Under the pieces are notes generated by a model. The model was not told where the DNA came from. It saw only the letters and a program-made list of their open reading frames with translations, and did no database searches. Positions 30,947 through 47,655 of a stretch of 64,000 bases of DNA are shown here, piece by piece (within the stretch, counting starts at the first letter, position 1; every line of letters starts with the position of its first letter). Origin of the DNA: Lysobacter silvisoli (GTDB lineage Bacteria; Pseudomonadota; Gammaproteobacteria; Xanthomonadales; Xanthomonadaceae). The position numbers were made by a program, and so were the translations under genes. The stretch spans positions 496,001 to 560,000 of the forward strand of contig NZ_QTSU01000002.1 in assembly GCF_003382365.1 (NCBI RefSeq). The letters are read 5' to 3'.

Positions 30947-32302
30947 TCAATAAGTCGCGTCGAACGCGAAGATCGGCTTGCGCGACTTCCAGGCGCCGTG
31001 GGTGAAGTCCGGGAACTCCAGGGTCTTGAAGCCTTCGGCGATCGACTGTTCCGACAGCGGCGTGATCGCGCTCCAGGCCAGGGCGTCGTAGATGTCGATG
31101 GGCATGGGCGCTTCGGCCTTCAGCGCTTCGACGAAGGCGTGGATCACGAAGTAGTCCATGCCGCCGTGGCCGGCGCCGGCCGCCTCGGCGGCGTACTTGC
31201 GCCACAGCGGATGATCGTACTGGTCCTGGTAGCCCTGGAACGGTTCCCATTTGTGCGCGGGGCTGCGGCCCTCGATGTGCACGGACTGGTTGAGGTCCAT
31301 CCACAGGCCATGGGTGCCCTGCACGCGGAAGCCCAGCGAGTACGGCCGCGGCAGCGAGGTGTCGTGCTGCAGCAGGATGGTCTCGCCGTTCTCGCAGGCC
31401 AGGGTGGTCGTGACGATGTCGCCGAGCTTGAACTTGACCCGGGTGCTGGGGTGGCTGCTGCCGCCGCTCTTGTCCACCGTGTACTCGTGCAGGCCGCGCG
31501 CCTTGCTGGCGAAGCTGTTGATGTGGGTGAAGCGGTTGCCGCGGTTGATGCCGGTGTACATGGCGCAGGGGCCGATGCCGTGGCTGGGGTAGAGCTCGCC
31601 GTTGCGGCGCACGGAATGCTCGGTGCGCCAGCGCGCCTCGGACCAGCCCTTGGCGCCGAACTCCACGCCGCTGCCGTAGGGCTGGTCGGGGTCGCCGGAG
31701 TTGAACTTCACCGCGCGCAGGTCGTGCTGGTAGCCGCCCTGCAGATGCACCAGCTCGCCGAACAGGCCTGCACGCACCATCTGCAGCACCGCCATCACGT
31801 CGCGGCGGTAGCACACGTTCTCCAGCAGCATGTAGGGCGTGCCGGTGCGCTGTTGCGCGGCGAGCACGTCCCAATGGTCCTGCAGGCTGACGCCGGCGAC
31901 CACTTCGCAGCCGACCGGGATCTTGGCCTGCATGGCCTCGATCGCCATCGGCGCGTGCCACTCCCAGGGCGTGGCGATGATCACGCCGTCCAGATCGCGC
32001 TGCGCGAGCAGGCGGCGGTAGGCGTGCACGTCGCCGTCGCGGCCGTAGCTCTTGGGCACGGGCTTGCCGGCCTTGTCGACCATGGCCAGGGCGCGGTCGA
32101 GCATGATCGGCTCGATGTCGCACAGCGCCACCAGCTCCACGTCGTCGCGCCGCACCAGCTCGCGCATCAGCACCTGGCCGCGCATGCCGGTGCCGATCAG
32201 GCCCAGGCGCACGCGGCGCTTGGCTGCCCAGGCCGGCGTTTCCGGCAGCAGGGCGGTGGCGCCGATCGCGGCGCCGGCCAGGATGAAATCTCTACGGTTC
32301 AT
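30947..32302 (-). CDS. GH109-type alpha-N-acetylgalactosaminidase (Gfo/Idh/MocA fold)
   Basis: 451 aa. A twin-arginine signal (MNRRDFILAGAAIGA) targets the folded enzyme to the periplasm. The NAD-binding Rossmann motif is LGLIGTGMRGQVLMREL. Diagnostic GH109 strings follow: PWEWHAPMAIEAM, LLENVCYRRDVMAIL-like (here LLENVCYRRDVMAVL), GGYQHDLRAVKFNSG, HDTSLPRPYSLGF, GAGHGGMDYF. They correspond closely to the characterised Elizabethkingia enzyme as I recall it. GH109 enzymes cleave terminal alpha-GalNAc by an NAD+-dependent elimination mechanism. Activity fits the adjacent GalNAc catabolic genes. It is the distal gene of the minus-strand arm of the locus. Confidence 0.92.
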   Translation of the reverse strand: MNRRDFILAGAAIGATALLPETPAWAAKRRVRLGLIGTGMRGQVLMRELVRRDDVELVALCDIEPIMLDRALAMVDKAGKPVPKSYGRDGDVHAYRRLLAQRDLDGVIIATPWEWHAPMAIEAMQAKIPVGCEVVAGVSLQDHWDVLAAQQRTGTPYMLLENVCYRRDVMAVLQMVRAGLFGELVHLQGGYQHDLRAVKFNSGDPDQPYGSGVEFGAKGWSEARWRTEHSVRRNGELYPSHGIGPCAMYTGINRGNRFTHINSFASKARGLHEYTVDKSGGSSHPSTRVKFKLGDIVTTTLACENGETILLQHDTSLPRPYSLGFRVQGTHGLWMDLNQSVHIEGRSPAHKWEPFQGYQDQYDHPLWRKYAAEAAGAGHGGMDYFVIHAFVEALKAEAPMPIDIYDALAWSAITPLSEQSIAEGFKTLEFPDFTHGAWKSRKPIFAFDATY

Positions 32303-32407: not shown

Positions 32408-33517
32408 TCAAGGTTTCAGGCGCCAACGCTGGTAGCCGTTGGCCAGGCAGGCGTGGGTTTGCAGCCAGGCGCCGCGCACCGCGCCGCTCATCGGGTCCAG
32501 GCACTTGCGCGCGCCGACGTTGTACAGCTCGTTGGAACCGGGGATGGGCATCCAGCGCTGGCGCGCGCCGTTGCCGCAATCGGCCAGCTGCACCCTGCCG
32601 TCGGTATCGGCTTGCAGGCACTTGCTGCGCGAGCGCATGAGCAGACGGAAGCCGTCGTCGCGCTCGATCTGCTGGTTGGCATTGGCCGAGCAATCCCACA
32701 GACCGGCGCGGGCGCCGCCGGACAAGGTGTCCAGGCAATAGCTGCTTTGTTCGTTGAGCAGGCGCTGCGGGCTGCCCAGGGTGCCGTAGACGTTGGCCGC
32801 GGCGATGCAGTCCTGCTCGGCCGTGCATGCGGCGCGGGCGATCGTGGCGCAGATGCCGTAGGTCGTGGCGGTGCTGGAAGTCGGGCTCACGCTGCCCTGT
32901 TCGGCGCGCGGCGCATGCAGCACCGCGCTGCTGGCCGGCACGGCCGCGCAACTGGCGCGTTCCTGGCTGCCTTGGGCGTAGTCCTCCAGGAAGGTGTTGG
33001 TGCGGTTGGTCAGGCCGCCCCAGGCCGCGGGCACCTGGATGGTGGCGACCTTGCGCTGGGTGCCGGCGGCGGTGTCGTCGATGTAGGCCGCCCAGCGCCC
33101 GGGCGCCTCGGCGACGATGCGGATGTCGTAGGTGACGCGCTGGCGCCAGGCGTAATCGACCCAGCACTGCACGCCGCTGCCTTCGTGATCGAAGTAGGCG
33201 CATTGGGTGCCCGGTTCGGCGGTCCAGCCGGTGGCCTTCCAGATCGAGAAGTTCAGCGCCTTGTTGTGGCCGTCGCGCTGCTGCAGACCGACGTAGCCGC
33301 CGTCGCCGCCCTTGAACCAGAACTGGTGCGCCCAGTAGGTGTAGCCGTCCTTGCCCGGCTCGTCGGTGATGGTGGTGGGGAAGCTCAGGTCCAGATAGCC
33401 CAGTTCGGTGGCCGGCCACTGCCGGTCGATGGCGACCATGCCGCCGGCGACCAGGGCATGGGCGTTGGACGACAGCAACAGGCACAGCGACAGCACGGCG
33501 TAGCGGATGGTGCGCAT
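32408..33517 (-). CDS. Secreted DUF3472-like protein with ricin B-type lectin domain
   Basis: 369 aa starting MRTIRYAV after AGGAGGG. The signal peptide ends near SSNAHA. Residues about 30-195 resemble DUF3472: YTYWAHQFWFKGGDGGYVGLQQRDGHNKALNFSIWKAT. Residues about 255-369 form a ricin-type beta-trefoil lectin: three CLD/CLQ repeats each ending in a Q-x-W-like site (NQQIE degenerate, RQRWMPI, YQRWRL). Ricin-type domains commonly bind galactose or GalNAc, which fits this locus. The protein is probably exported to the surface or medium to bind GalNAc-containing glycans. Catalytic activity of the N-terminal domain is unknown. Confidence 0.8.
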   Translation of the reverse strand: MRTIRYAVLSLCLLLSSNAHALVAGGMVAIDRQWPATELGYLDLSFPTTITDEPGKDGYTYWAHQFWFKGGDGGYVGLQQRDGHNKALNFSIWKATGWTAEPGTQCAYFDHEGSGVQCWVDYAWRQRVTYDIRIVAEAPGRWAAYIDDTAAGTQRKVATIQVPAAWGGLTNRTNTFLEDYAQGSQERASCAAVPASSAVLHAPRAEQGSVSPTSSTATTYGICATIARAACTAEQDCIAAANVYGTLGSPQRLLNEQSSYCLDTLSGGARAGLWDCSANANQQIERDDGFRLLMRSRSKCLQADTDGRVQLADCGNGARQRWMPIPGSNELYNVGARKCLDPMSGAVRGAWLQTHACLANGYQRWRLKP

Positions 33518-33554
33518 GGGAACCCTCCTGCGAAAGACGTGGCGTGCATGCACG

Positions 33555-33592: not shown

Positions 33593-36574
33593 TCAGAACT
33601 TGTAGCCCAGCGACACGCTGAAGATGCGGCCGAAGTTGTTGGTGTAGCCGGGGAAGGTCATCCAGTCGTTGGGGTCGTAGAACGGATGGCGGTCGAACAG
33701 GTTCTTCACCGTCGCCCCGACCGTGAGCTTCTCGGTCGGACGCCAAGTCACGCCCAGGTTGGCGGTCCACCAGGCCGGCGCGCCGTCGCACTTGCTGGGC
33801 TGCACCGACACGTAGCTGCCGGTGCAGGTTTCGGCGTTGTTGTCCTGCTCGTCGATGCGATCGTAGGCCCACTTGGTCTTGCCCACGTAGTTGACGTAGA
33901 AGCTGGTGTTCCAGTCGCCGTAGTTCCAGTCCACGTTGAAGGTCGCACGCAGACGCGGGTTGTTGTAGTAGCCCACGGTATTGCCGTACAGCCAGCCCGA
34001 CTCGTCGCCGGTGTTGTACATGTTGCGGCGGGCGATGGTCGCGGCCACGCCCACGTTCAAGCGGCCCCAGTCGCCCAGGTCGAAGCGGCTGCGCGCGTCG
34101 ATGTCGAAGCCGTCGACCAGGGTGCGGCCGCGGTTCTTGTACTGGCCGATCACGCTGGAGATGTTGCCGATGCTGTAGCCGGGCAGCGTGCCCGGGCAGG
34201 TCACGCCGCTGGCCGGGTCGGCGCACATCGCCGCCAGCGCGGCCAAGTTGGCGCGGTCGGCATCGGTGATGCCGAAGCGGGTCATGGCGATGATGTCGTC
34301 GGGCTTGCTGTAGTCCGGAGCGACGATTTCATTGCGGCGGTAGATGAACCAGTAGTCGGCCGAGACCGACAGCCAGTTCGTCGGCTCGTAGACGAAGCCC
34401 AGGGTGGCGATCTTGGCCTTTTCTGGCTCCAGGTCGCGGTTGGGCTGGGTCAGGCGCGCGACGTTGCGGCTGCAGTCGGAATTGCGCAGCGTACGGCCCA
34501 GGTCCACGTCGCCGGGGCGCGCGGACTGCAGCAGCAGGTTGGCGATGGCGTTGGTCTCGTTGCAGCGCACTTCGTCGCGGTAGCCGCCGATCTGCGCGAA
34601 CACGCCGCCTTCGCCGGACTCGGCCAGGCTGGGCGCGCGGAAGCCTTCGGAATAGGTGCCGCGCAGCAGCAGTTGCTCGAAGGCCTGGTACTTCAGGCCG
34701 ATCTTGGGCGCCAGGTTGGCGTTGAAGTTCGGGTACTTGTCCAGGCGCGCGGCCAGTTCCAGCTCCAGCTTGTCGGTGATCGGCGCCACCGACTCGGCGA
34801 ACAGCGCATAGGTGGTGCGCTTACCGTCGAACCAGGAACCGCCCTGCTGGGTGATCAGGCCGTTGGCCGCGTCCTCGTTGCCGGGGGTGAAGAAGGTTTC
34901 GCGGCTAAGGTTGAAGCCGAACGCCGCGCGCACCTCGCCGGCGGGCAGCGAGAACAGCGGGCCTTCGATCTTGCCGTCCAGGGTGTGCAGGCGCGTCCAG
35001 GACTCGATGTCGAAGGTCGGGTAAGCCTCGCGCAGCAGCTTGGCGTTGGCCTCGCTGATCTCGCCGAACTTGTAGGCCGGGTTGTCGGAGATGATCACGC
35101 GGCCCGTGCCCGGGTCGATGGTGAACGGGCCGAACGCGCGCTCGAAGCCTTCCAGGTTGACGTTGACCGTCTGGTAGGTGACCGAGTGCGAACCGGCGGT
35201 GGTGAACGCGCTTTCCCAGTTCCAGTCGCCCAGCGCGCCGCGCAGGCCGAACATGCCGCGGTAGCTCTTGTCGGTATTGCGCTGGCCGAAGTAGTCGCCG
35301 CCCACGTCCTGCAGCAGGTACTGCAGGCCGACCACGCCGCCGTTGATCGCGCGCAGCGCCGGGCTGGCCTTGTTGTAGACGTTGTTGGGGCCCAGGTAAG
35401 GGTAGAGGAACTGGTTGACGGTGTTGCCGGTGTTGCGCGAGAACCAGCTGGTCGGGTTGCCGGTGGTGGTGCCGAAGCTGCGCGGCGTGCCGCCGTTGGC
35501 GCGCAGGTCGATGTCGGTGTACGTGGCCTCGGCGAACGCCTCCGTGGTCTCGCCCAGCAGGAAGCGCGCGCTGACGTAGGCGGTGGCGCGCTCGGACTCG
35601 GCGCCGCCGTCGATCTCGTTGTTGAGCCAGGTCTGCCAGATGCAGCGCGGGCCGGCGGCTTCCATCACCACGTTCTGGCAGCCCGGCGCGGCTTCCTGGG
35701 TGCGCCGGCCGGTGACCGGATCGATCGCGAAGTAGCTGCCGGGATTGAACACGCCCGGCGCGCTGCCGGTGCCCAGGCGCAGGTTGTTGATGTAGTTCGG
35801 GTTGTTGACGTAGAACTGCTCGGGCTTCTTGTCGTACCACTCCGACAGCGGAATCGGGTCGCGCCGGTACAGGTTGACCGAGGCATAGACGTTGTAGCGG
35901 TCCTCGTCCAGGTCGCCGAAGCCGCCGGTCAGGCTGAGCTGGTGCTCGCCGTAGGAATCGAAGCGCGGGGCGAAGTCGGTGGTGAGGTTGATCTCGGCGC
36001 CGCGGTACTCGCGCTTGGTGATCACGTTGATCACGCCGGCGACCGCGTCGGTGCCGTACACGGCCGAGGCGCCGTCGGTCAGCACTTCCATGCGTTCGAT
36101 CGCCGCGGCCGGAATCGCGTCGATGTTGACGAACTGGGTCTGGAAGCCCGCGGGCGCGCCGTAGTAGGACAGGCGGCGGCCGTTCAACAGCACCAGGGTG
36201 CCCTGCGCGCCCAGGCCGCGCAGGTTGGCCTGCGAGGCGCCGTCGGAACCGGTGAACAGCGACTTGGAGTCCACCTGCGCCGGCCGCGCCGCCGGCAGGT
36301 TGTCGAGCACCTGCAACAGGGTGCGCGCGCCCATGTTCTCGATGTCCTGCTTGCTGATGACCTGCACCGGCGAGGCGGTCTCGACGTCGGTGCGCTTGAT
36401 GTTGGTACCGGTGACCTCGAGCCGCTCGATCTCGGTGGCGTCGTCCTTGGATGCGGCGTCCGGCGCGGCGGTCTGCGCGTGCAGCGGGCCGGCGACCAGG
36501 GCGGCGGCCAAGGCGAAGGACAGCGCATTGACGGGGATGCGGCGATGGCGACAGCGTTGGCTTGAATGCAACAT
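33593..36574 (-). CDS. TonB-dependent outer-membrane receptor, likely GalNAc-glycan uptake
   Basis: 993 aa, starting MLHSSQRCRHRR after GGAG. The signal peptide ends PLHAQ. The N-terminal plug domain is clear: IERLEVTGTNIKRTDVETASPVQVISKQDIENMG, LRGLGAQGTLVLLNGRRLS and IERMEVLTDGASAVYGTDAVAGVINVITK. The remainder is a 22-strand barrel ending in the aromatic FSVSLGYKF. It belongs to the oar/BtuB-like group common in xanthomonads for oligosaccharide uptake. No ligand can be read from sequence. Its position between GH31 and GH109 enzymes and opposite the aga genes points to GalNAc or GalNAc-containing oligosaccharides. Confidence 0.95.
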   Translation of the reverse strand: MLHSSQRCRHRRIPVNALSFALAAALVAGPLHAQTAAPDAASKDDATEIERLEVTGTNIKRTDVETASPVQVISKQDIENMGARTLLQVLDNLPAARPAQVDSKSLFTGSDGASQANLRGLGAQGTLVLLNGRRLSYYGAPAGFQTQFVNIDAIPAAAIERMEVLTDGASAVYGTDAVAGVINVITKREYRGAEINLTTDFAPRFDSYGEHQLSLTGGFGDLDEDRYNVYASVNLYRRDPIPLSEWYDKKPEQFYVNNPNYINNLRLGTGSAPGVFNPGSYFAIDPVTGRRTQEAAPGCQNVVMEAAGPRCIWQTWLNNEIDGGAESERATAYVSARFLLGETTEAFAEATYTDIDLRANGGTPRSFGTTTGNPTSWFSRNTGNTVNQFLYPYLGPNNVYNKASPALRAINGGVVGLQYLLQDVGGDYFGQRNTDKSYRGMFGLRGALGDWNWESAFTTAGSHSVTYQTVNVNLEGFERAFGPFTIDPGTGRVIISDNPAYKFGEISEANAKLLREAYPTFDIESWTRLHTLDGKIEGPLFSLPAGEVRAAFGFNLSRETFFTPGNEDAANGLITQQGGSWFDGKRTTYALFAESVAPITDKLELELAARLDKYPNFNANLAPKIGLKYQAFEQLLLRGTYSEGFRAPSLAESGEGGVFAQIGGYRDEVRCNETNAIANLLLQSARPGDVDLGRTLRNSDCSRNVARLTQPNRDLEPEKAKIATLGFVYEPTNWLSVSADYWFIYRRNEIVAPDYSKPDDIIAMTRFGITDADRANLAALAAMCADPASGVTCPGTLPGYSIGNISSVIGQYKNRGRTLVDGFDIDARSRFDLGDWGRLNVGVAATIARRNMYNTGDESGWLYGNTVGYYNNPRLRATFNVDWNYGDWNTSFYVNYVGKTKWAYDRIDEQDNNAETCTGSYVSVQPSKCDGAPAWWTANLGVTWRPTEKLTVGATVKNLFDRHPFYDPNDWMTFPGYTNNFGRIFSVSLGYKF

Positions 36575-36712
36575 CTTCGGCTCCAGTTCTAGGACCACGA
36601 TTCGGGCGACGCGGGTCGCGGCGCGGGCGGGTTGGCTTGCGTTGGGCAACAAAACTCCGATGCCGCGGCGCGGGGCCGCAGTCGGACGTGCAATGCTGGT
36701 GGTGACGCTGGC

Positions 36713-39700
36713 TTAAGGCGTGGCGATGACGGCGGTGTCGCCCTCCTGTCCGATCAGGACCGCATTGGCCCAATTGCCGCAGACCTGCGCCGGGCGCGCG
36801 CCTTGCGCGCCCAGGGTGCGCAGGCTCAGCCGCTGCAGGCCGCGGATGTCGAGTTCGGGTTTGACCACGCCGGGCGCGCGCACCAGGCCGCTGTCGTAGA
36901 GCAGGCGGTCGTCGCCCCATACCTGGAACTGCAAACCGCCCGCGTCGCGGCAGCGGTCGTCCACGCCCAGGTCGGCGCGCAGCAGGCGCCAGCCGCCCTG
37001 CAGCTGCAGGTCGATGCGGCTGTCGGCGCCCACGCCCAGGCCGCGGCGGAACAGCAGGCCGTTCATGCGCATCTCGCCCTGCCCGCCCGGCGCGCGATCC
37101 AGCGCCACACGCCCGGCCAGCGCCGGCGGCAGCGGCAGTTCGGACAGATAGCGCTGCTGCGCGGGGCGTTCGTCGCCGCGGTGCTCGAGCACGCGGAAAG
37201 TCGACAAGGCGATCGGGCCGACATCGCGCGGCTGCAACGCGTCGAACGCGCGCGCGGTGCCGCCTTGGGCGGCGCTGACCATGGGATCGGTGCTGCCGGC
37301 GGCGTCGCCGTCGGGGTTCTGCGTGCTGAGCACGCGGAAGCGCAGCAGGCGACCGGCGCGTGCGGGGAAGCTGATGGTCTGCGCGGCCTGCTGCAGCTTG
37401 AGCTTGCCGCTGGCGATCGGCGCGCCCCACTCGCCGTTGCTGTCGGCCAGGTAGACCTCGTAGTCGCGCACCTGGCCGTGCTTCCAATGCTGGTCGTTGC
37501 GCGGCGCCAGTTCGATGCCGTCGATCAGGCGGCGCTCGCCGAAGCCCAGGGTCCACTCGTGCGCGCCGGTGCGCACGGCCTGGTTGCGCACGCTGCGGAA
37601 CCAGGTGGCCGCATCGTCGTCGAAGGCGTTTTCCAGCGGATGGCCGGGCTCTTCGGCGGGACGGTTGACCACCAGCAGGCTGTCCGGCGGCAGCGCGCGG
37701 CCCAGTTCGGGCGCGGCCGGGAACGCGTCGTCGGCCGACGCGGCGGCGACCGCGAAGGCCAGGCGGAACTCCAGCGCGCGGCGGATGTCGGTGCTGGCGC
37801 TGCGCACGTGCAGGGTGCCGCGGCGCTCGGCCGCATCAAAGTACCAGCCTTCATCGGCCGCCTGCAGCGCGGCGCGGTCGGCCAGCGCCGGCAGCGCGCG
37901 GCCGTCGAGCTCCACCGCGTCGGGACGCGCGCGGCTGAGCACGCGCAGCGCGTAGCGGCGCTGCGGCAGCTGGCCCGCGTATTGGCCGCGCACCGGCGCG
38001 ATGCGCACGCGCACCTCGCCGCTGCCCTGCTCCGGCGCCTGCACCGCGATGTCCTGCTCGCTGTATTCGCCCTTGGCGTAGCGGCGGGTGTTGCCGTCGT
38101 CCTCGTACAGCGTGTACTGCGAGGCGCCCTGCGGATACAGGTCCAGGGTCAGCTCGTCCAATGGGCGTTCGCCGTCGTAGAGCATGGCCGGGTACATCGG
38201 CAGGATCGCGCCGGCGCGCACGAACACCGGCAGCGTGGCCAGGTCGACCTGACGGTCCAGGTCGCGGCCCTGCGCGCCGGCCAGCAGCTGGCGCCCGTCC
38301 CAGTAGTCGATCCAACGGCCCGCCGGCAGGTGGATGCCGCGGCGCCAGCCGCGGCTGGCGGCCTGGCTGCGGTACACCGGCGCCACCAGCAGCTCGCGGC
38401 CGAGCAGGAACTGGTACTTGTGCGCTTCGGTATACGCCTGCGGGTCTTGCGGGTAATCCCACATCAGCGCGCGCACCGGCGGTGCGCCGCTGCGTTCGGC
38501 TTCGCGCGCCAGGCCGTACATGTACGGGGTCAGGCGCATCTTCAGCTTGAGGTAGTCGCGGTTGATGCTGCGGTAGGGTTCGTCGTACCACCACGGGTGC
38601 TTGCGCGCATTGGCGGCCCAGCCCGACATGCCCATCAGCACCGGAGTGAAGGCCTTCCACTGCAGATCGCGGGTGTAGGTCTCGGCGCTGCCGCCGAAGA
38701 TCGCGTCCACGTCGCCCGTGGCGTAGGCCATGCCCGACAGGCCCGAGCCGATCAGGGTCGGCACGTGCCAGCGGATGTAATCCCAGCTGCTGCTCTGATC
38801 GCCGGTCCAGGCCACGGCGTAGCGCTGGATGCCGGCCCAGCCCATCACCGTCCACAGGAACGGGCGCGAATCGGAGTTGTTCAAGATGCCGTCGTAAGCC
38901 GAGCGGTTCGCGTCCATCGCGAACTGGTAGCCCTTGCCGGTCCAGGCCACGTCCAGCTTCTGCACGCGGCTGCCGGCCTTGCCCACTTCCCAGGCGATCT
39001 TGTCGACGCCGTTCTCGGTCCATAGACCGGTGCGGAAGCCGTAGCGCGACAGCGCCTGCACCACGTCGGGCAGTTGCTTGTAGCCGCAGCCGTAGCCGTC
39101 GTTGGGCAGGATCCAGCCGCCGGGCATATCGTGTTCGCGGTACTGCTTGGCCACGCTCTCGACCACGTCCGGCGTGGTGCCGGTGGGGCCGTCGCGCCAG
39201 CCTTCGGGCACGGTGCCGGGCTTCTTGGCGTTGTCGCCGTCGTTGTAGCAATCGGCGTCGCCGTAGGACAGCGCCCAGCGCGGCAGCAGGCCGGCGCGGC
39301 CGGTCAGCGCGGTGTAGCGCTCCAGCAGCGGGTGCAGGCTGGCGCCGACGAAGTAGTAGGCGTCGAAGCGATCCTCGCGATGCAGCAAGGTCGCCTGATC
39401 GGGCTGGCGCAGGTCGTAATTGCCGTCGCTCCAGGTGTTGCGCAGCATGCCCCAGCCGCGCGAGCTCAGCAGCATGGGCGCGGGGCTGGGACGGTCGCCC
39501 TCTTCCCAGCCGCCGGAGTAGGAAATCTCCAGCTCGCGACCCTTGAACTCGTAGCGGCCGTTCTGCTGGCCGCCGCCGTAGTAATGCTCGTCGGCGGCGC
39601 TGGACAGCACCTGCACGCTTTGTTGCGGCGACAGGTCCAGCGGCTGCAGTTCGCGCCACAGCGGCAGCGCGCGGCCGCCGTCGATGCGGTCCAGCGCCAG

Positions 39701-40090
39701 GCGCAGCGGCTGGCGCTGGATGTGCAGCACCAGTGCATCGGTGCGGATGCGCAGCTCCTGCGCGTCTTCTTCGAAACTGTATTGCGGGGCGGCGTCGGCC
39801 TGCGGCAGCACGATGGGCGCGGCCTTGTCGCCGGGCGGCGTCAGCTTGCCCTGGCGGCCGGCCTGCACGCGCAGGGTGTCGGCGCGCAGCAGTTCGATGC
39901 GCAGGCGCGCACCGGTGTCGGTATCGATCTGCCAGGCCGCGCGGCCGTCGCGCGCGGTGGCCACATCGACGCTGCGCAGGTTGCCCACACCGTCGGCCAG
40001 CGCCGGCAGGGTACAGACCAGCAAGGCCGGCCACAGGGCCAGCGCCAGCAATCGTCGACAGCGCACGCGGGTTTCCAACCTTGCCCCCAA
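36713..40090 (-). CDS. Secreted GH31 glycosidase with discoidin and NPCBM modules
   Basis: About 1125 aa. The signal peptide ends TLPALADG. Residues 40-220 are a DUF4968-like N-terminal sandwich. The GH31 barrel follows: candidate nucleophile Asp380 in KLDVAW, candidate acid/base Asp431 in WTGDQSSSW, then LSGMAYATGDVDAIFGG. The nucleophile motif differs from the WxDMNE of alpha-glucosidases. Residues about 805-925 are a discoidin (F5/8 C) module (HPLENAFDDDAATWF) and 965-1125 an NPCBM-like module. The start is TTG at 40090 with AAAGG upstream; a GTG at 40066 would also preserve the signal peptide. Given the locus, alpha-N-acetylgalactosaminidase (as described for GH31 subfamily 18) is the best guess. 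Confidence 0.9.
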   Translation of the reverse strand: MGARLETRVRCRRLLALALWPALLVCTLPALADGVGNLRSVDVATARDGRAAWQIDTDTGARLRIELLRADTLRVQAGRQGKLTPPGDKAAPIVLPQADAAPQYSFEEDAQELRIRTDALVLHIQRQPLRLALDRIDGGRALPLWRELQPLDLSPQQSVQVLSSAADEHYYGGGQQNGRYEFKGRELEISYSGGWEEGDRPSPAPMLLSSRGWGMLRNTWSDGNYDLRQPDQATLLHREDRFDAYYFVGASLHPLLERYTALTGRAGLLPRWALSYGDADCYNDGDNAKKPGTVPEGWRDGPTGTTPDVVESVAKQYREHDMPGGWILPNDGYGCGYKQLPDVVQALSRYGFRTGLWTENGVDKIAWEVGKAGSRVQKLDVAWTGKGYQFAMDANRSAYDGILNNSDSRPFLWTVMGWAGIQRYAVAWTGDQSSSWDYIRWHVPTLIGSGLSGMAYATGDVDAIFGGSAETYTRDLQWKAFTPVLMGMSGWAANARKHPWWYDEPYRSINRDYLKLKMRLTPYMYGLAREAERSGAPPVRALMWDYPQDPQAYTEAHKYQFLLGRELLVAPVYRSQAASRGWRRGIHLPAGRWIDYWDGRQLLAGAQGRDLDRQVDLATLPVFVRAGAILPMYPAMLYDGERPLDELTLDLYPQGASQYTLYEDDGNTRRYAKGEYSEQDIAVQAPEQGSGEVRVRIAPVRGQYAGQLPQRRYALRVLSRARPDAVELDGRALPALADRAALQAADEGWYFDAAERRGTLHVRSASTDIRRALEFRLAFAVAAASADDAFPAAPELGRALPPDSLLVVNRPAEEPGHPLENAFDDDAATWFRSVRNQAVRTGAHEWTLGFGERRLIDGIELAPRNDQHWKHGQVRDYEVYLADSNGEWGAPIASGKLKLQQAAQTISFPARAGRLLRFRVLSTQNPDGDAAGSTDPMVSAAQGGTARAFDALQPRDVGPIALSTFRVLEHRGDERPAQQRYLSELPLPPALAGRVALDRAPGGQGEMRMNGLLFRRGLGVGADSRIDLQLQGGWRLLRADLGVDDRCRDAGGLQFQVWGDDRLLYDSGLVRAPGVVKPELDIRGLQRLSLRTLGAQGARPAQVCGNWANAVLIGQEGDTAVIATP

Positions 40091-40195
40091 GCTCGCCTTT
40101 CGGCGCGAACGAAACCAGTGCGGCCGACTCTAGGGCAGGGTCTCGAAATATGTCAACAAATTGCAAAGATAAATGAAGGATTTTACGGGTAAAAC

Positions 40196-40221
40196 GAAAG
40201 TTGTTGCGGAGCAACACTTTC
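40196..40221. promoter_or_regulatory. Candidate AgaR operator O1
   Basis: An inverted repeat of GAAAGTTGTTGC and GCAACACTTTC with a 3-bp centre, differing by a single missing base. The outer boxes are GAAAG and CTTTC separated by 16 bp. It lies 106 bp upstream of the GH31 start and 190 bp upstream of agaS. Confidence 0.65.
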
Positions 40222-40348
40222 CTAAACGGCTATTCATCTACTAAAACAGGTAAGAATGGCGTGCACTTACAGCGCCTACCGTTCGTCGGCTGGCGAAAGA
40301 ACGCTCGCGGCGCTTGCGAAACCCCATCACTAGAAAAGCTTCCAAAAT

Positions 40349-40373
40349 CTTTCGATATTTGACATTTCGAAAG
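40349..40373. promoter_or_regulatory. Candidate AgaR operator O2 overlapping a -35 box
   Basis: A perfect 7-bp dyad CTTTCGA-N11-TCGAAAG. TTGACA at 40359-40364 lies in its spacer, 43 bp before the agaS ATG. Repressor binding here would block RNA polymerase. No strong -10 is visible (GATCGT at the right distance). Confidence 0.65.
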
Positions 40374-40411
40374 AAAACGCAGATCGTGCCCCTGCCCAAC
40401 AGGACCGATGA

Positions 40412-41569
40412 ATGGACGCTCCTTCGCTCACCGACTTGCCCGCCTGGCAGCGCCTGGGCGGCGGCCACACCGCCGAAGAAATCGCCCAGCAGCCCGCGCT
40501 GTGGGAGGCCCTGGCCGAGTCGCTGCAGGCGCAGTCGGCGCAGCTGCAGGACTTCCTCGCCGATTGGCTGCAGCAGCCGCAGCACCGGGTGATCTTCACC
40601 GGCGCCGGCAGCTCCGGCTTCATCGCCGAAATGGTCGCCGACCAGATCGATGCGCAGTGGCCTGCCGAAGTGCGCGTGGTCCACACCACCAGCCTGCTCA
40701 CCCACCCCGCGCTGTACCTGCAGCGCGAGCGGCCGACGCTGCTGGTGTCGTTCGCGCGCAGCGGCTCCAGCCCGGAAAGCACGGCCGCGGTCGACCTGGT
40801 GCGCGAGCGCGTGGCCCAGGCGCGCTTCCTCGACATCACCTGCAACCGCGACGGCGAACTCGCGCGCCGCGGCCAGGGCCGCGCCGACACCTGCACCCTG
40901 CTCATGCCCGAGGCCAGCTGCGATCGCGCCTTCGCCATGACCAGCAGCCTGAGCTGCATGCTGCTGGCCGCGCTGAGCGTGTTCGCCGATACGCCGTGGC
41001 CGCAACGCGTGCGGGCGCTGCGCGCGCTGGCCGCGCAGGCCCGCCTCGCCTTGGCGCAGTGGGACGCGCCGGTGGTCGCGCTGGCGCAGGCGCCGTACTC
41101 GCGCGTGATCTACCTGGGCAGCGGCCCGCTGGAAGCGCTGGCGCGCGAAGCCGCGCTCAAGCTGCTGGAACTCACCGCCGGGCGCGTGCTGGCGCTGGCG
41201 AACACGCCGCTGGGTTTCCGCCACGGCCCCAAGTCCACCATCGACGGCGACACGCTGGTGGTGGTGCTGCGCAGCGCGCAGCCGCTGGCGCGCCGCTACG
41301 AACAGGACCTGCTGGACGAACTGCGCCGCGACGGCATCGCCGGACGCGTGCTGTCGGTGGGTCCGCACAGCGACGTGGGCGCGCAAGACGATTACGCCCT
41401 GGCCGCGCCGGACCTGCCCGATCCGTGGCTGGCGCCGCTGTGGCTGTGCTTCGCCCAACGCTATGCGCTGCAGCGCTCCTCGGCGCTGGGCCTGACGCCC
41501 GACAACCCCTTCCCCGACGGCACCGTGAACCGGGTCGTGCAGGGCGTGACCATCCACCGGCTGGACTGA
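40412..41569 (+). CDS. agaS: Galactosamine-6-phosphate deaminase/isomerase AgaS
   Basis: 385 aa, starting MDAPSLTDLP after AGGA. Two SIS (sugar isomerase) domains: the first holds VIFTGAGSSGFIAEMVADQI and SFARSGSSPESTAAV, the second VIYLGSGPLEALAREAALKLLELTAGRV and FRHGPKSTIDGDTLVVV. The N-terminal extension and HGPKS motif match AgaS rather than GlmS or other SIS proteins. AgaS converts galactosamine-6-phosphate to tagatose-6-phosphate and ammonia in the cytoplasm. It heads a six-gene plus-strand unit, with a 10-bp gap to the kinase gene. Confidence 0.95.
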   Translation: MDAPSLTDLPAWQRLGGGHTAEEIAQQPALWEALAESLQAQSAQLQDFLADWLQQPQHRVIFTGAGSSGFIAEMVADQIDAQWPAEVRVVHTTSLLTHPALYLQRERPTLLVSFARSGSSPESTAAVDLVRERVAQARFLDITCNRDGELARRGQGRADTCTLLMPEASCDRAFAMTSSLSCMLLAALSVFADTPWPQRVRALRALAAQARLALAQWDAPVVALAQAPYSRVIYLGSGPLEALAREAALKLLELTAGRVLALANTPLGFRHGPKSTIDGDTLVVVLRSAQPLARRYEQDLLDELRRDGIAGRVLSVGPHSDVGAQDDYALAAPDLPDPWLAPLWLCFAQRYALQRSSALGLTPDNPFPDGTVNRVVQGVTIHRLD

Positions 41570-41579
41570 GCGCGACGCC

Positions 41580-42506
41580 ATGCAGCTGCATTACGGCATC
41601 GACATCGGCGGCACCAAGATCGAGCTGGCCGCTTGCGACGACGCGTTGCAGGTGCGCTACCGCCGCCGCATCGACACGCCGACCCAGGACTACGCCGGCT
41701 TCCTGCGCGCGGTGGCGGAACTGGTGGACGCGGCCGACCGCGAACTGCAGCAGGCCGGCCACGCGGTCGGCATCGCCCTGCCCGGCGTGGTCGACCGCAG
41801 CAACGGCCGCCAGCTCAGCGCCAACGTGCCGGCGCTGACCGGGCAGCGCGTGGGTCACGACCTGCAAGAATTGCTGCGGCGCCCGCTGCAGCTGGGCAAC
41901 GACCTGCAATGCTTCGCCTTGTCCGAAGCCCATGGCGGCGCCGCCGAGGGCTACCCCAGCATGTTCGGGGCGATCCTCGGCACCGGCGCGGGCGGCGGCT
42001 ATTGCCTGGGCGGCCGCCTGATCGCCGGCTACAACGGCATCGCCGGCGAATGGGGCCACTGGAGCGTGCCGGCGCATCTGCTGGCCAGGCACGGCCTGCC
42101 GATGCTGGATTGCGCCTGCGGCCTGCGCGGCTGCGTGGAGCGCTACGTGTCCGGCGGCGGCCTGGCTGCGATCCATCGCGGCCTGGGCGGCGATGCGCCG
42201 CATGCCGAAGCCATCATCGCCCTGGCCGAACAAGGCGACGCGCCGGCGCTGCGCGCGCTCGACATCCATCTGGACCTGCTCGGCCACAGCCTGGCCAGCC
42301 TGATCATGGCCGTGGACCCGCACGTGATCGTGCTCGGCGGCGGCCTGTCCAAATCGCAGCGCCTGTACCGCGAACTGCCCGGCGCGGTGGCCGCGCATCT
42401 GTTCCGCGGCGTGCGCGTGCCGCCGATCCTGCCGCCGGCCTTCGGCGATGCCGGCGGCGCGCGCGGCGCGGCGCTGCTCGCGCGCCAGCACGCACCCGCC
42501 CCCTGA
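41580..42506 (+). CDS. agaK: ROK family kinase, predicted GalNAc kinase AgaK
   Basis: 308 aa of the ROK family. ATP-binding phosphate loops are YGIDIGGTKIELA at the N terminus and AILGTGAGGGYCLGG near residue 138. NDLQCFALSEA and GEWGHW form the sugar site. The zinc-binding signature is CACGLRGCVERYVSG near residue 180. ROK kinases phosphorylate glucose, ManNAc, GlcNAc or GalNAc; specificity here is inferred from neighbours, as for the AgaK of Shewanella. GalNAc enters unphosphorylated through the MFS porter, so a kinase is needed, consistent with the absence of a PTS. Confidence 0.9.
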   Translation: MQLHYGIDIGGTKIELAACDDALQVRYRRRIDTPTQDYAGFLRAVAELVDAADRELQQAGHAVGIALPGVVDRSNGRQLSANVPALTGQRVGHDLQELLRRPLQLGNDLQCFALSEAHGGAAEGYPSMFGAILGTGAGGGYCLGGRLIAGYNGIAGEWGHWSVPAHLLARHGLPMLDCACGLRGCVERYVSGGGLAAIHRGLGGDAPHAEAIIALAEQGDAPALRALDIHLDLLGHSLASLIMAVDPHVIVLGGGLSKSQRLYRELPGAVAAHLFRGVRVPPILPPAFGDAGGARGAALLARQHAPAP

Positions 42507-42522: not shown

Positions 42523-43863
42523 GTGTCCGCTGTGTCCGCCTTGATCGCCGCCCACCGCTCCGGCCAGAACGTGGGCCTGTACAGCGTGTGCTGCAGCAAC
42601 GAACAGGTGCTGGTGGCGGCGATGCAGGTCGCGCAGCGCTACGGCACGCCGCTGCTGATCGAGGCCACGTCCAACCAGGTCGACCAGTTCGGCGGCTACA
42701 CCGGCATGACCCCGGCGCAGTACCGCGATTACGTGCTGGCGCTGGCGCGCGAACACGGCTTCCCCGAGCAGCGCCTGATCCTGGGCGGCGACCACCTGGG
42801 CCCGAACGCCTGGCAGCGCCTGCCCGCCGAGCAGGCGATGGCGCACGCGCGCGAACTCATCGCCGCCTACGCCGCCGCCGGCTTCCACAAGATTCACCTG
42901 GACTGCAGCATGGCCTGCGCCGACGACCCCACGCCGCTGCCGGACGACACGGTGGCGGCGCGTTCGGCGGAACTGGCGCGCATCGCCGAACGCAGCGCGC
43001 GCGAGGCCGGCCGGCCGCCGCCGGTGTACGTGATCGGCACCGAGGTGCCGGTGCCCGGCGGCGAAGCCTCGCTCCACGGCGGCGTGGCGGTGACCCGGCC
43101 CGAGGCCGCCGCGGCCACACTGGAGATCCACCGCCGCGCGTTCGCCGCGCCGGACCTGGCCCCGGCCTGGGAACGGGTGATCGCGATGGTGGTGCAGCCG
43201 GGCGTGGATTTCGACCACAGCCAGGTGCAGCACTACGACGCGCCGGCGGCCGCGGCGCTGTCGGACTTCATCGAGACCCAGCCGCGGCTGGTGTTCGAGG
43301 CGCATTCCACCGACTACCAGAACGAGGCCGGGCTGCACGCGCTGGTGCGCGACCACTACGCCATCCTCAAGGTCGGGCCGGCGGCGACCTATGCCTACCG
43401 CGAGGCGCTGTTCGCGCTGGCCGCGATCGAGCAGTCGCTGGTCCCGGCCGAACGGCGCTCGGACCTGGTGGACACCCTGGACCGCGTCATGCGCGAGCGC
43501 CCGCAGCATTGGGTCAAGCACTACAGCGGCGACGCGCAGCAGCTGCGCCTGCTGCGCGCCTACGCCCTCAGCGACCGCTGCCGTTATTACTGGGGCGAGC
43601 CGGAACTGCAGACGGCGGTGCACACCCTGATCGACAACCTCAGCGCGCAGCCGCTGCCGGAGATCCTGTTGCGCCAGTTCCTGCCCGAGCAGCAGCGCGA
43701 GGTCGAAGCCGGGCGCCTAGCCGCCGAGCCGCTGGCGCTGATCCGGCACAAGGTGGCGCAACGGCTGGCCGAGTACGCGCGCGCCTGCGCACGCAACGGC
43801 GCCGGCACGCGCACCGCGGTCGACAACGAAAGCGACGGCGCCAAAGCGCTTTCGCAACGCTAA
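42523..43863 (+). CDS. agaZ: AgaZ/KbaZ family (tagatose-bisphosphate aldolase subunit)
   Basis: 446 aa with a GTG start, preceded by GGAG. The first residues SALIAAHRSGQNVGLYSVCCSNEQVL and IEATSNQVDQFGGYTGM are typical of KbaZ/GatZ, as are LILGGDHLGPNAW, FHKIHLDCSMACADDP and LKVGPAATYAYREALFAL. These proteins are the non-catalytic, stabilising subunits of class II tagatose-1,6-bisphosphate aldolase; an older proposal, also used in comparative studies, makes AgaZ a tagatose-6-phosphate kinase. Its usual catalytic partner KbaY/AgaY is not encoded here. A GAAAG-N16-CTTTC dyad lies within its 3' end. Confidence 0.9.
   Translation: MSAVSALIAAHRSGQNVGLYSVCCSNEQVLVAAMQVAQRYGTPLLIEATSNQVDQFGGYTGMTPAQYRDYVLALAREHGFPEQRLILGGDHLGPNAWQRLPAEQAMAHARELIAAYAAAGFHKIHLDCSMACADDPTPLPDDTVAARSAELARIAERSAREAGRPPPVYVIGTEVPVPGGEASLHGGVAVTRPEAAAATLEIHRRAFAAPDLAPAWERVIAMVVQPGVDFDHSQVQHYDAPAAAALSDFIETQPRLVFEAHSTDYQNEAGLHALVRDHYAILKVGPAATYAYREALFALAAIEQSLVPAERRSDLVDTLDRVMRERPQHWVKHYSGDAQQLRLLRAYALSDRCRYYWGEPELQTAVHTLIDNLSAQPLPEILLRQFLPEQQREVEAGRLAAEPLALIRHKVAQRLAEYARACARNGAGTRTAVDNESDGAKALSQR
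43828..43853. promoter_or_regulatory. Candidate AgaR operator O3 upstream of agaR
   Basis: GAAAGCG-N12-CGCTTTC, a perfect 7-bp dyad whose GAAAG and CTTTC cores are 16 bp apart, exactly as in O1. It lies in the last codons of agaZ, 50 bp before the agaR ATG, suggesting autoregulation or an internal promoter. Confidence 0.5.
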
Positions 43864-43902: not shown

Positions 43903-44679
43903 ATGCGCAATACCCGCCAACGCCGGCAACAGATCCTGCAGCTGCTGGTCCAGCACGGCAACGTGCAGGTCTCGGATCTGGTCGAGCGTTTCGGCGTGTC
44001 GTCGGTGACCATCCGCGCCGACCTCAGCCACATCGAATCGCAGGGCCTGGCCACCCGCAACCACGGCGGCGCCGCGCTGGTGCGCACGCCTCCGCCGGAA
44101 CAGGACATCCACGAGAAGGACGCACTGAACCTGCCGCTGAAGGAGTCCATCGGCGCGCGCGCGGCGCAGCTGGTCAAGCCCGGCGACAACATCATCATCG
44201 ACTCCGGCTCGACCACGATGACCCTGGCCCGCCACCTGCGCGGCCATCGCGAGGTCACCGTGATGACCAACGGCCTGAACATCGCCTGGGAACTGGCCAA
44301 CGCGCCGGGCGTGGAGCTGCTGCTCACCGGCGGCCTGCTGCGCAAGCAGTCGCTGTCGCTGCAAGGCAGCCAGGCCGAGGCCAGCCTCAATCCCTACAGC
44401 TTCGACACCGTGTTCCTGGGCGTGGACGGACTGGACCTGCAGTTCGGCCTGACCACCCACCACGAGGCCGAAGCCAGCCTCAACCATCGCATGGTCGAAC
44501 ACGCGCGCCGCATCGTGGTGCTGACCGACGCGTCCAAGTTCGGACGCGTCAGCCTGCACCGCATCGCCCGCCTCGACCAGGTCCAGACCATCATCACCGA
44601 CCCTGGCATCAGCCCCGAGTACCGCGACGGGCTGCAGCAGCTGGGCATCGAAGTGATCATCGCCGAGCCACCGCCTTGA
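43903..44679 (+). CDS. agaR: DeoR-family repressor AgaR
   Basis: 258 aa. The N-terminal DeoR helix-turn-helix is NVQVSDLVERFGVSSVTIRADLSHIE followed by the hinge GGAAL. The C-terminal sugar-phosphate-sensing domain has IIDSGSTTMTLARHL, VMTNGLNIAWELA, LLTGGLLRKQSLSL, DTVFLGVDGLD and LTDASKFGR. This is the AgaR/GlpR/DeoR arrangement. It should repress the aga genes until an amino-sugar phosphate such as GalN6P or GalNAc6P binds. The gene lies inside its presumed operon, and its stop overlaps the TTG of the deacetylase (TTGA). Confidence 0.92.
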   Translation: MRNTRQRRQQILQLLVQHGNVQVSDLVERFGVSSVTIRADLSHIESQGLATRNHGGAALVRTPPPEQDIHEKDALNLPLKESIGARAAQLVKPGDNIIIDSGSTTMTLARHLRGHREVTVMTNGLNIAWELANAPGVELLLTGGLLRKQSLSLQGSQAEASLNPYSFDTVFLGVDGLDLQFGLTTHHEAEASLNHRMVEHARRIVVLTDASKFGRVSLHRIARLDQVQTIITDPGISPEYRDGLQQLGIEVIIAEPPP

Positions 44680-45791
44680 CCGCAGCGCCGCGCACCTTGC
44701 AGGGCCGCATCCTGACCGAACGCGGTTGGGTGCGCGGCGAGATCGAATTCGACCGGCGCGTGCGCGCGATCCGCGCCGACGCGCACGGCGGCGACGGCGA
44801 CGAACTGCCGTGGATCCTGCCCGGCTTCATCGACCTGCACGTGCACGGCGGCGCCGGCGTGGACCTGATGGAAGGCGGCGACGCGGCCGACACCATCGCC
44901 CGCACCCACGCCCGCCACGGCACCACCGCCCTGCTGGGCACCACCATGACCGCGCACGAGGACGAGATCGTCCACGCCTTGCGCGGCCTGGCCGCGGCCA
45001 TCGCCGAACGCAGGCCCGGCGCCGCGCGGGTGCTGGGCGTGCATCTGGAAGGCCCCTACATCAGCCCGCAGCGCCTGGGCGCGCAGCCGCCGTTGACGGT
45101 GGAGGCCACGCTGGAACAGGTGCAGCGGCTGCACGCGCTGGCGCCGATCAGGGTGCTGACCCTGGCGCCGGAGATCGGCCGCCACCAGGCGCTGATCGCG
45201 CCGCTGAGCGCCATGGGCATCCGCGTGCAGCTGGGCCACAGCGCCGGCAGCTACGACGACGGCGTGGCCGCGCTGCAGGCCGGCGCGGCCGGCTTCACCC
45301 ATCTGTTCAACGGCATGACCGGCGTGGACCACTACCGCCCCGGCATCGCCACCGCCGCGCTCGCGCATGCGCAGTACGCCGAGCTGATTCCGGACCTGCA
45401 GCACGTGCACCCGGGCGCGATCCGCGCCGCGTTGCGCGCGATCCCGCGGCTGTACTGCGTGACCGACGCCACCGCCGCCACCGACATGCCCGACGGCGAG
45501 TACGCGCTGGGCTCGCAGCGCGTGCACAAGCACCAGTGCTGCGTGCGCCTGGCCACCGGCTCGCTGGCCGGCAGCGCGCTGACCATGGACCAGGCGCTGC
45601 GCAATCTGGTCGCGCTGGGCCTGGACCTGGCCGACGCCTCGCAGCGCCTGTCGCGCTATCCCGCCGACTACCTGGGCCTGCACGACCGCGGCCGCCTGCA
45701 GCCCGAAGCCTGTGCCGATCTGGTGGTGTTGGACGCGCAACTGCAGCCGCGCCAGGTCTACGTCGAAGGCGAAGCGATCGCGCTCGACTGA
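44676..45791 (+). CDS. agaA: Amino-sugar-6-phosphate deacetylase (AgaA/NagA family)
   Basis: 371 aa with a TTG start overlapping the repressor stop. Amidohydrolase motifs: LPGFIDLHVHGGAGVDLMEG (HxH metal site), VHLEGPYISPQRLGA, QLGHSAGSYDDG, FTHLFNGMTG, and VTDATAATDMPDG with the catalytic Asp. It removes acetate from N-acetylgalactosamine-6-phosphate in the cytoplasm. NagA acting on GlcNAc-6-P cannot be separated by motif; the GalNAc role comes from the neighbours. A GTG a few codons later is an alternative start but would trim a conserved strand. Confidence 0.92.
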   Translation: MTAAPRTLQGRILTERGWVRGEIEFDRRVRAIRADAHGGDGDELPWILPGFIDLHVHGGAGVDLMEGGDAADTIARTHARHGTTALLGTTMTAHEDEIVHALRGLAAAIAERRPGAARVLGVHLEGPYISPQRLGAQPPLTVEATLEQVQRLHALAPIRVLTLAPEIGRHQALIAPLSAMGIRVQLGHSAGSYDDGVAALQAGAAGFTHLFNGMTGVDHYRPGIATAALAHAQYAELIPDLQHVHPGAIRAALRAIPRLYCVTDATAATDMPDGEYALGSQRVHKHQCCVRLATGSLAGSALTMDQALRNLVALGLDLADASQRLSRYPADYLGLHDRGRLQPEACADLVVLDAQLQPRQVYVEGEAIALD

Positions 45792-45849
45792 AGCCCCGCG
45801 CATTCCCGCCGCAGGCCTTGCGGCACCATTCCACGACAGGACCGGCCCC

Positions 45850-47655
45850 ATGAACGACGCCATCGCCATGCCCGCGCCCGCCGACCGCGCCTCGCCGCGC
45901 TGGCAGCTGCGCTATCTGTTGTTCATCGCCGGCATGGGCGGCCTGCTCTACGGCATCGACATCGGCATCATCGCCGGCGCCCTGCCCTATCTGGAGGCCA
46001 CCGCCAGCGCGAGCTGGCATCTGAGCAGCCAGCAACTGAGCTTCGTGGTCGCCGCGGTGCTGCTGGGCAGCGTGCTGTCCTCGCTGTTCGCCGGCCTGGT
46101 GGCGGACTGGATCGGACGCCGCGGCGCCATGCTGCTGGCCGGCGTGCTGTTCGCCGCCAGCATTCCGATCATGGCCCTGGCCTCGGGCTATGTGCCGCTG
46201 CTGCTGGGCCGGTTGCTGCAAGGCGTGAGCGGCGGCCTGATCGGCGTGGTGGTGCCGCTGTACCTGGCCGAAGTGCTGAGCCCGGAGCGGCGCGGCCGCG
46301 GCGCGGCCATGTTCCAGCTGCTGCTCACCACCGGCCTGCTGCTGGCGGCGCTGATCGGCCTGTACCACGCGCAGGCGGTGGACGCGGCCGCCGCGTCGGC
46401 GCAGTCGCTGTCGGCCCAGGAACAAAGCCGGGTGCTGTTCGCTGCCAAGGACCACGCCTGGCGCACGATCTTCTGGAGCTGCCTGTTGCCGGGCCTGGTG
46501 TTCAGCGTGGGCGTGCTGCTGCTGAGCGAATCGCCGCGCTGGCTGGTGCGGCGCGGGCGCATCGAACAGGCGCGCGCGGCGCTGCGGCGCACGGTGCCGG
46601 CCGACCAGGTCGAGGCCACGCTGCAGAGCATGCTCGCGCCCGACGCGGCCGACGACCGGGCGGGCGCGACCGCGCGCGACCGCCTGCTCAGCCGCCGCTA
46701 CGTCTGGCCGTTCCTGCTGGCCTGCGTGATCCTGGCCTGCACTCAAGCCACCGGCATCAATTCGGTGCTGGCCTACGCGGTCAACATCTTCAATCAGGCC
46801 GGCCTGCCCGGCGCGGTGGCCAACGGCGCCGACGTGGCGATCAAGCTGCTCAACGTGGTCATGACCGTGGTCGCGCTGGTGCTGGTGGACCGCAAGGGCC
46901 GCAAGTTCCTGCTGATGCTGGGCAGCGGCGGCATCGCCCTGGCGCTGATCGCGGCGGGCCTGCTGTTCCTCAGCGCCGAGCGCGGTCGCGCCGACGTGCG
47001 CGAGACCTTGCAACAGCAGGTCAGCGCCGATGCGCTGCAGCTGCGCATGGACGCCGCGCAATGGCAGCGTCTGGGCGCGAGCGACGGCACACGACCGCAG
47101 CAGCTGACCGTGTCCTATTCCTACGGCGGCTTCAGCAACGTGCGCTCGCTGCGCAGCGACGCGCTGGGCGAACCGGAACTGCTGCTGCGCCGCGAGGACA
47201 GCGTACAGCCCGACAGCGTGATCGGCGCGACCTTCCGCCGCCTGCACCTCAACCCGTTCCCCGACCCGGCGCAGGCCGCGCAGGCGCCGCTGCGGATCGA
47301 GCGCGCCAGCCTGGGCCCGGTGCCCACCGCCGCGCACGGCTGGGCGGTGGCGGCCTGCATCCTGGTGTTCGTGGCCTTCTTCGCGGTAGGCCCGGGCGTG
47401 TGCGTGTGGCTGGCGCTGTCGGAGCTGATGCCCACGCGCATCCGCTCCAACGGCATGAGCATCGCCCTGCTCATCAACCAGTTCGTGTCGACCTCGATCG
47501 CCGCGATCTTCCTGCCCACGGTCGGCCACTACGGCTACGCCAGCATGTTCTTCTTCTGGGCCGGTTGCACCGTGGTCTACTTCCTGGTCGCCGCGTTCGC
47601 GCTGCCGGAAACCAAGGGCAAGTCGCTGGAGCAGATCGAGGCGAACTTCCGCTGA
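45850..47655 (+). CDS. agaP: MFS sugar porter with large periplasmic insertion
   Basis: 601 aa, about 120 residues longer than typical sugar porters. Family signatures: GLLYGIDIGIIAGAL, GLVADWIGRRGA, LGRLLQGVSGGLIGVVVPLYLAE, SESPRWL, QATGINSVLAYAVNIF, VDRKGRK and PETKGKSLEQIE. Twelve membrane helices are expected. Helix 9 ends near residue 375 and helix 10 starts near 498; the intervening stretch (ERGRADVRETLQQ ... IERASLGPVPT) is on the periplasmic side and is predicted to be a soluble domain. A shorter extra loop of 35 residues follows helix 5. By context it imports GalNAc across the inner membrane by proton symport. Confidence 0.9.
   Translation: MNDAIAMPAPADRASPRWQLRYLLFIAGMGGLLYGIDIGIIAGALPYLEATASASWHLSSQQLSFVVAAVLLGSVLSSLFAGLVADWIGRRGAMLLAGVLFAASIPIMALASGYVPLLLGRLLQGVSGGLIGVVVPLYLAEVLSPERRGRGAAMFQLLLTTGLLLAALIGLYHAQAVDAAAASAQSLSAQEQSRVLFAAKDHAWRTIFWSCLLPGLVFSVGVLLLSESPRWLVRRGRIEQARAALRRTVPADQVEATLQSMLAPDAADDRAGATARDRLLSRRYVWPFLLACVILACTQATGINSVLAYAVNIFNQAGLPGAVANGADVAIKLLNVVMTVVALVLVDRKGRKFLLMLGSGGIALALIAAGLLFLSAERGRADVRETLQQQVSADALQLRMDAAQWQRLGASDGTRPQQLTVSYSYGGFSNVRSLRSDALGEPELLLRREDSVQPDSVIGATFRRLHLNPFPDPAQAAQAPLRIERASLGPVPTAAHGWAVAACILVFVAFFAVGPGVCVWLALSELMPTRIRSNGMSIALLINQFVSTSIAAIFLPTVGHYGYASMFFFWAGCTVVYFLVAAFALPETKGKSLEQIEANFR

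Follow-up and report, generated by a model that had tools for sequence, protein, structure and literature searches.

Candidate AgaR operators on both promoters of a divergent N-acetylgalactosamine locus in Lysobacter silvisoli

In Lysobacter silvisoli, two arms of genes diverge from a 321-bp gap between a GH31 gene and agaS, and this arrangement raises the question of whether a single regulator could control both of them. The gap holds six CTTTC/GAAAG boxes; CTTTC is reportedly the core common to the AgaR sites of proteobacteria, said to be found upstream of aga genes in several copies that are variously arranged. The window, by which we mean the whole stretch of 64,000 nucleotides that was analysed, encodes the following genes in the two arms.

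30947-32302, minus strand: GH109 alpha-N-acetylgalactosaminidase, left arm (Pfam PF21252)
32408-33553: ricin-lectin protein with DUF3472, left arm
33593-36652: TonB-dependent receptor, left arm
36713-40090, minus strand: GH31, first gene of the left arm (Pfam GH31, F5/8C, NPCBM)
40412-41569, plus strand: agaS, first gene of the right arm (TIGR02815 agaS_fam, 417 bits, under the cut-off of 529)
41580-42506: ROK kinase, right arm
ending at 43863: agaZ, right arm
43903-44679, plus strand: agaR, DeoR-family repressor and proposed binder (NCBIfam NF040755, 335 bits, cut-off 260)
about 44664-45791: NagA-family deacetylase, right arm
45844-47655: sugar-porter permease, right arm

By sequence, the left arm would free and import alpha-linked N-acetylgalactosamine, which the right arm would degrade. 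The closest solved structures to the GH31 protein are GH31 alpha-N-acetylgalactosaminidases (7f7r/6m76), and it is probably an enzyme of this kind; the GH109 protein matches the solved alpha-N-acetylgalactosaminidase 2ixa with E=6e-148. The left arm, a probable operon, combines the GH109 enzyme with a probable second alpha-N-acetylgalactosaminidase, from the unrelated family GH31, a TonB receptor and a lectin, a set of genes suggestive of a system devoted to alpha-GalNAc glycans.

The boxes and the sites that they form

The original prediction placed CTTTC at 40097, 40217 and 40349 and GAAAG at 40196, 40295 and 40369, and paired four of these into a GAAAG-N16-CTTTC dyad (40196-40221) and a CTTTC/GAAAG dyad (40349-40373) that brackets TTGACA (40359-40364). 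We found all six boxes and both dyads exactly there. The claim that this is ten times the number expected by chance is roughly right against base composition, from which 0.67 boxes are expected; against local dinucleotide shuffles of the gap itself (20,000 shuffles; mean 1.22 boxes, P(>=6)=0.00065) the excess is about 5-fold. Over all 64 kb of the window CTTTC shows no enrichment (46 observed, 52 expected), and outside the gap no 321-bp stretch of the window contains four boxes. The first reading had missed two sites, a further GAAAG-N16-CTTTC at 43828-43853 with the same geometry as the 40196 dyad, and a degenerate GH31-side site around a minus-strand TTGACA (40151-40156). The boxes, proposed promoters and candidate operators are listed here.

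40097-40101, plus strand: CTTTC box, exact in 1 of 32 aligned regions, that of the window only
40127-40156, minus strand: proposed left-arm (GH31 operon) promoter, -35 TTGACA 40156-40151, 18-bp spacer, -10 TAGAGT 40132-40127
40144-40168, unstranded: candidate left-arm operator, degenerate here (TCGAAA..TGTCAA..GCAAAG), recognized from alignments
40196-40221, unstranded: middle dyad GAAAG-N16-CTTTC, recognized from rarity and conservation
40295-40299, unstranded: GAAAG box in an unconserved linker where the alignment is unreliable; the box is in no relative
40338-40373 (core 40349-40373), unstranded: candidate agaS-side operator, CTTTC-N15-GAAAG around TTGACA, recognized from rarity and conservation
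40359-40387, plus strand: proposed agaS promoter, -35 TTGACA 40359-40364, 17-bp spacer, weak -10 GATCGT 40382-40387
43828-43853, unstranded: second GAAAG-N16-CTTTC, lying within agaZ at its 3' end, with agaR 50 bp downstream

Both dyad geometries are rare in this genome of 4.54 Mb. It has a single CTTTC-N15-GAAAG, at agaS (backwards control 5), and five copies of GAAAG-N16-CTTTC (backwards control 11), two of them at 40196-40221 and 43828-43853; together the two patterns mark six places in the genome, three of which are at the aga locus. The left-arm promoter was the sole sigma-70-like promoter returned by a consensus scan of 40000-40450 (10/12; 0.1 expected). The scan did not reach the agaS promoter, which is proposed from sequence and conservation, with GATCGT at 40382-40387 as a candidate -10. 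Transcription is predicted to start near 40120 for the left arm and near 40393 for agaS.

To 19 relatives, aligned first, we added another 20 members of the family, most of them of other genera, giving 40 orthologous regions including the window. Per-box retention and identity were calculated over 32 aligned regions, window included. The linkers are unconserved in these regions (mean pairwise identity about 0.30), and amid them stand three conserved islands: the left promoter (identity 0.94 in the -10 region and 0.76 in the -35 region), the middle dyad (0.97 in the left box, 0.86 in the right box and 0.64 in the centre) and the agaS core (0.91). Exact boxes are retained at 40196 in 30/32 regions, at 40217 in 20/32, at 40349 in 28/32 and at 40369 in 32/32. 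The original prediction had set conservation in orthologous loci as its test, and both dyads are kept across many genera; its six sites are reduced to these four, as the boxes at 40097 and 40295, unconserved across the 32 aligned regions, were dropped as operators and are probably chance occurrences.

Over all 40 regions, the agaS-side core is present with at least 9 of its 10 box letters in every one, and in 21 of them an extra CTTTC lies exactly 11 bp before it; the window has a decayed, degenerate copy of this upstream direct repeat. The left-arm operator reads TTTCGAAAG..TGTCAA..GAAAG in relatives. The middle dyad is exact, as GAAA[GC]-N16-CTTTC, in 26 of the 40 regions. Because its distance to the left -35 is fixed (42-43 bp in 39/40 regions) and its distance to the agaS core is variable (62-162 bp), it seems to be an element of the left promoter, probably an upstream AgaR operator. 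We rejected a hairpin reading of this dyad: the terminator-like match at 40216-40202 lies upstream of both promoters and should therefore be transcribed from neither.

AgaR and its occurrence with the sites

That AgaR is the putative binder, as originally suggested, agrees with what we found: it is encoded in the adjacent operon, no second protein with HTH_DeoR was detected in the genome (in AgaR, HTH_DeoR, PF08220, and DeoRC, PF00455, are both above the Pfam cut-off), and the agaS-side site tracks AgaR among 297 family genomes. The agaS-side 25-mer is found within 3 mismatches in 50 of these genomes, once in each (backwards control 0), and an AgaR ortholog (E<=1e-80) in 52; the two overlap in 49, a co-occurrence that partly reflects common descent of one locus and does not represent independent events. 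In the single genome where the core comes without an AgaR match (G674), the aga operon is cut off by the end of a contig, leaving agaS and part of the kinase; three genomes (G477, G518 and G622) show the reverse, AgaR but no core. Within the genus, the middle dyad is present once in each of 18 genomes with a close AgaR ortholog and in 0/2 genomes without one, counts that are likewise not independent events.

More telling than these counts, in our view, is the survival of the elements through changes of neighbour. They persist where the TonB-dependent receptor (TBDT) gene comes first (L128), where GH31 faces agaR (L134) and where GH109 is first in the left arm (G674; TTGACATCTTTCG..CCCTACAGTCG), and the architecture of the left-arm promoter also precedes TBDT or GH109 when either is the first gene. 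In G477 (L129) the region upstream of agaS is rearranged, with the usual core missing and CTTTC boxes abundant, and the regulator there may work through another arrangement of sites. In G622 (L134), where agaR faces GH31 directly, the left-arm promoter element and GAAAG boxes are kept; no agaS, kinase or agaZ gene was found next to agaR, and the AgaR match carries an internal TGA.

The site at the end of agaZ is a probable autoregulatory operator of agaR. The Leu-Ser tail of AgaZ is written CTT TCG in 14/14 genomes that have this tail, although CTT is a rare codon, making up 2.6% of leucine codons in the compared agaZ genes (45/1,709, tail sites included). In L129 agaZ stops earlier, and GAAAG-N16-CTTTC is kept there in noncoding DNA. 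The site is absent from the large-genome clade, so autoregulation through it would not be universal.

A second AgaR-like gene, 76-77% identical, adjoins a lectin/DUF3472 homolog in two genomes, G005 and G017 (L113, 12001-12765, and L114, 9765-9001). Checked as an independent test, these paralogs were found to have no CTTTC clusters upstream. Distant genomes with weaker AgaR matches (L103-L112) have mostly non-aga loci at which comparable clusters are absent, and they therefore do not extend the motif.

A proposed switch and its alternatives

We propose, with a probability of roughly 0.88, that the conserved boxes are AgaR operators, that AgaR represses both arms and its own gene, and that an amino-sugar phosphate triggers its release. 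The presence of conserved boxes on both promoters supports the idea, put forward in the original prediction, of a single regulator for the two arms. In the absence of sugar, AgaR on 40338-40373 would cover the -35 of the agaS promoter, AgaR on about 40144-40168 together with the dyad at 40196-40221 would silence the divergent left-arm promoter, and AgaR on the fourth site, 43828-43853, would damp its own gene within the operon. At the sites that bracket a -35 (40359-40364 and 40151-40156), a bound repressor would exclude RNA polymerase. When galactosamine-6-phosphate or N-acetylgalactosamine-6-phosphate builds up, AgaR would let go, a step modelled on the E. coli pattern, and both arms would be expressed: the alpha-N-acetylgalactosaminidases and TonB receptor of the left arm would capture the sugar, and the agaS-kinase-agaZ-deacetylase-permease series of the right arm would consume it. 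Position, rarity, conservation and co-occurrence with AgaR are direct observations on the DNA; from them we infer binding, repression rather than activation, the inducer and the start sites. Against this model stand the degeneracy of the left-arm site in the window, the lack of the agaR-proximal site in the large-genome clade, the paralogous AgaR genes without upstream box clusters, the poor fit of the E. coli-type AgaR consensus and the part that shared ancestry plays in the co-occurrence.

The middle dyad may boost left-arm repression or may be the site of another protein. AgaR could act at the two promoter-overlapping sites only, with the middle dyad (consensus GAAAGWTTGTGCNNNGCAHHACTTTC) belonging to a different protein such as a left-arm activator. 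This mixed arrangement, which we consider unlikely, gains from the conserved centre that the dyad has besides its boxes (TTGTGC-NNN-GCA), from its placement some 88 bp ahead of the predicted left start and a fixed 42-43 bp from the -35, which would suit an activator site or auxiliary operator, and from the 62 to 162 bp that separate it from the agaS site. Yet the dyad starts and finishes with the same GAAAG/CTTTC boxes, its geometry is seen again ahead of agaR around an unrelated centre, L120 keeps the boxes while the centre differs, and its restriction within the genus to one copy per genome, only with AgaR, speaks against a global activator. The recurrence of the box-bearing geometry at agaR favours AgaR as its binder. 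Somewhat less probable still is that AgaR bridges the middle dyad to the agaZ-end site 3.6 kb away, or that such a bridge joins the middle dyad to the left promoter; were this true, a coding-embedded operator and DNA looping would set both arms and AgaR's own level.

Readings without any operator fare far worse. It is very improbable that the conservation reflects only the -35 and -10 elements of two promoters. The strongest columns do include TTGACA and the left -10, but the middle dyad lies outside both core promoters, the agaR-proximal site lies in coding sequence, and the GAAAG half of the agaS site falls between the -35 and the -10, in a spacer whose sequence sigma-70 does not normally recognize. 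A chance cluster with no regulatory role in an A+T-richer intergenic stretch would account for the two unconserved boxes, and P=0.00065 is not extreme if many intergenic regions are scanned, but conservation over 40 genomes and the genome-wide rarity of the dyads contradict this explanation, to which we give almost no weight.

Likeness to known AgaR systems

The locus combines a multi-copy CTTTC core upstream of aga genes with a linked AgaR ortholog and conservation among orthologs. It shares with proteobacterial AgaR regulons the regulator family, the box, its presence in several copies and its position upstream of agaS and uptake genes, and differs from them in the spacings (CTTTC-N15-GAAAG around the -35, and GAAAG-N16-CTTTC) and in the GH31 and GH109 hydrolases of the controlled left arm. 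The sites are very probably CTTTC-type AgaR operators with lineage-specific spacing, and would add a new example of a known switch.

In E. coli, the agaR-kbaZ and agaS promoters are known AgaR targets, and deletion of agaR makes agaA and agaS constitutive (PMC3668189). We examined the DNA of these targets and found clustered boxes in both, 6 in 248 bp (agaR-kbaZ) and 7 in 350 bp (agaS). Clustered CTTTC boxes, AgaR and autoregulation (a candidate here) are common to both systems; the E. coli sites are direct CTTTC-N5-[AG]TTTC repeats, whereas the relatives studied here space direct repeats by 11 bp (N6) and combine them with inverted boxes. The 24-letter consensus of E. coli-type operators, WRMMTTTCRTTTYRTTTYNYTTKK, matches at best 17/24 in the GH31/agaS region versus 24/24 in both E. 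coli regions, and we rejected it as a description of the present sites on account of this poor fit. The streptococcal AgaR1/AgaR2 have the name and pathway in common with the regulator discussed here but come from a different DNA-binding family, the HutC subfamily of GntR regulators, and recognize other palindromes (PMC4694137). A search of the open literature found no published work on an AgaR switch in this bacterial group.

As proposed, the regulon is compact and testable and is expected to be confined to a single locus, with one repressor coupling the extracellular liberation of alpha-linked N-acetylgalactosamine to the intracellular catabolism of this sugar. Its deeply conserved spacing would also make it a good system for studying how DeoR-type repressors read copies of a single five-letter box in different arrangements. 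In a number of relatives (L036-L048, L102 and L125) an extra GAAAG/CTTTC dyad, which the window lacks, lies between the middle dyad and the agaS core, so that the number of candidate operators differs between lineages.
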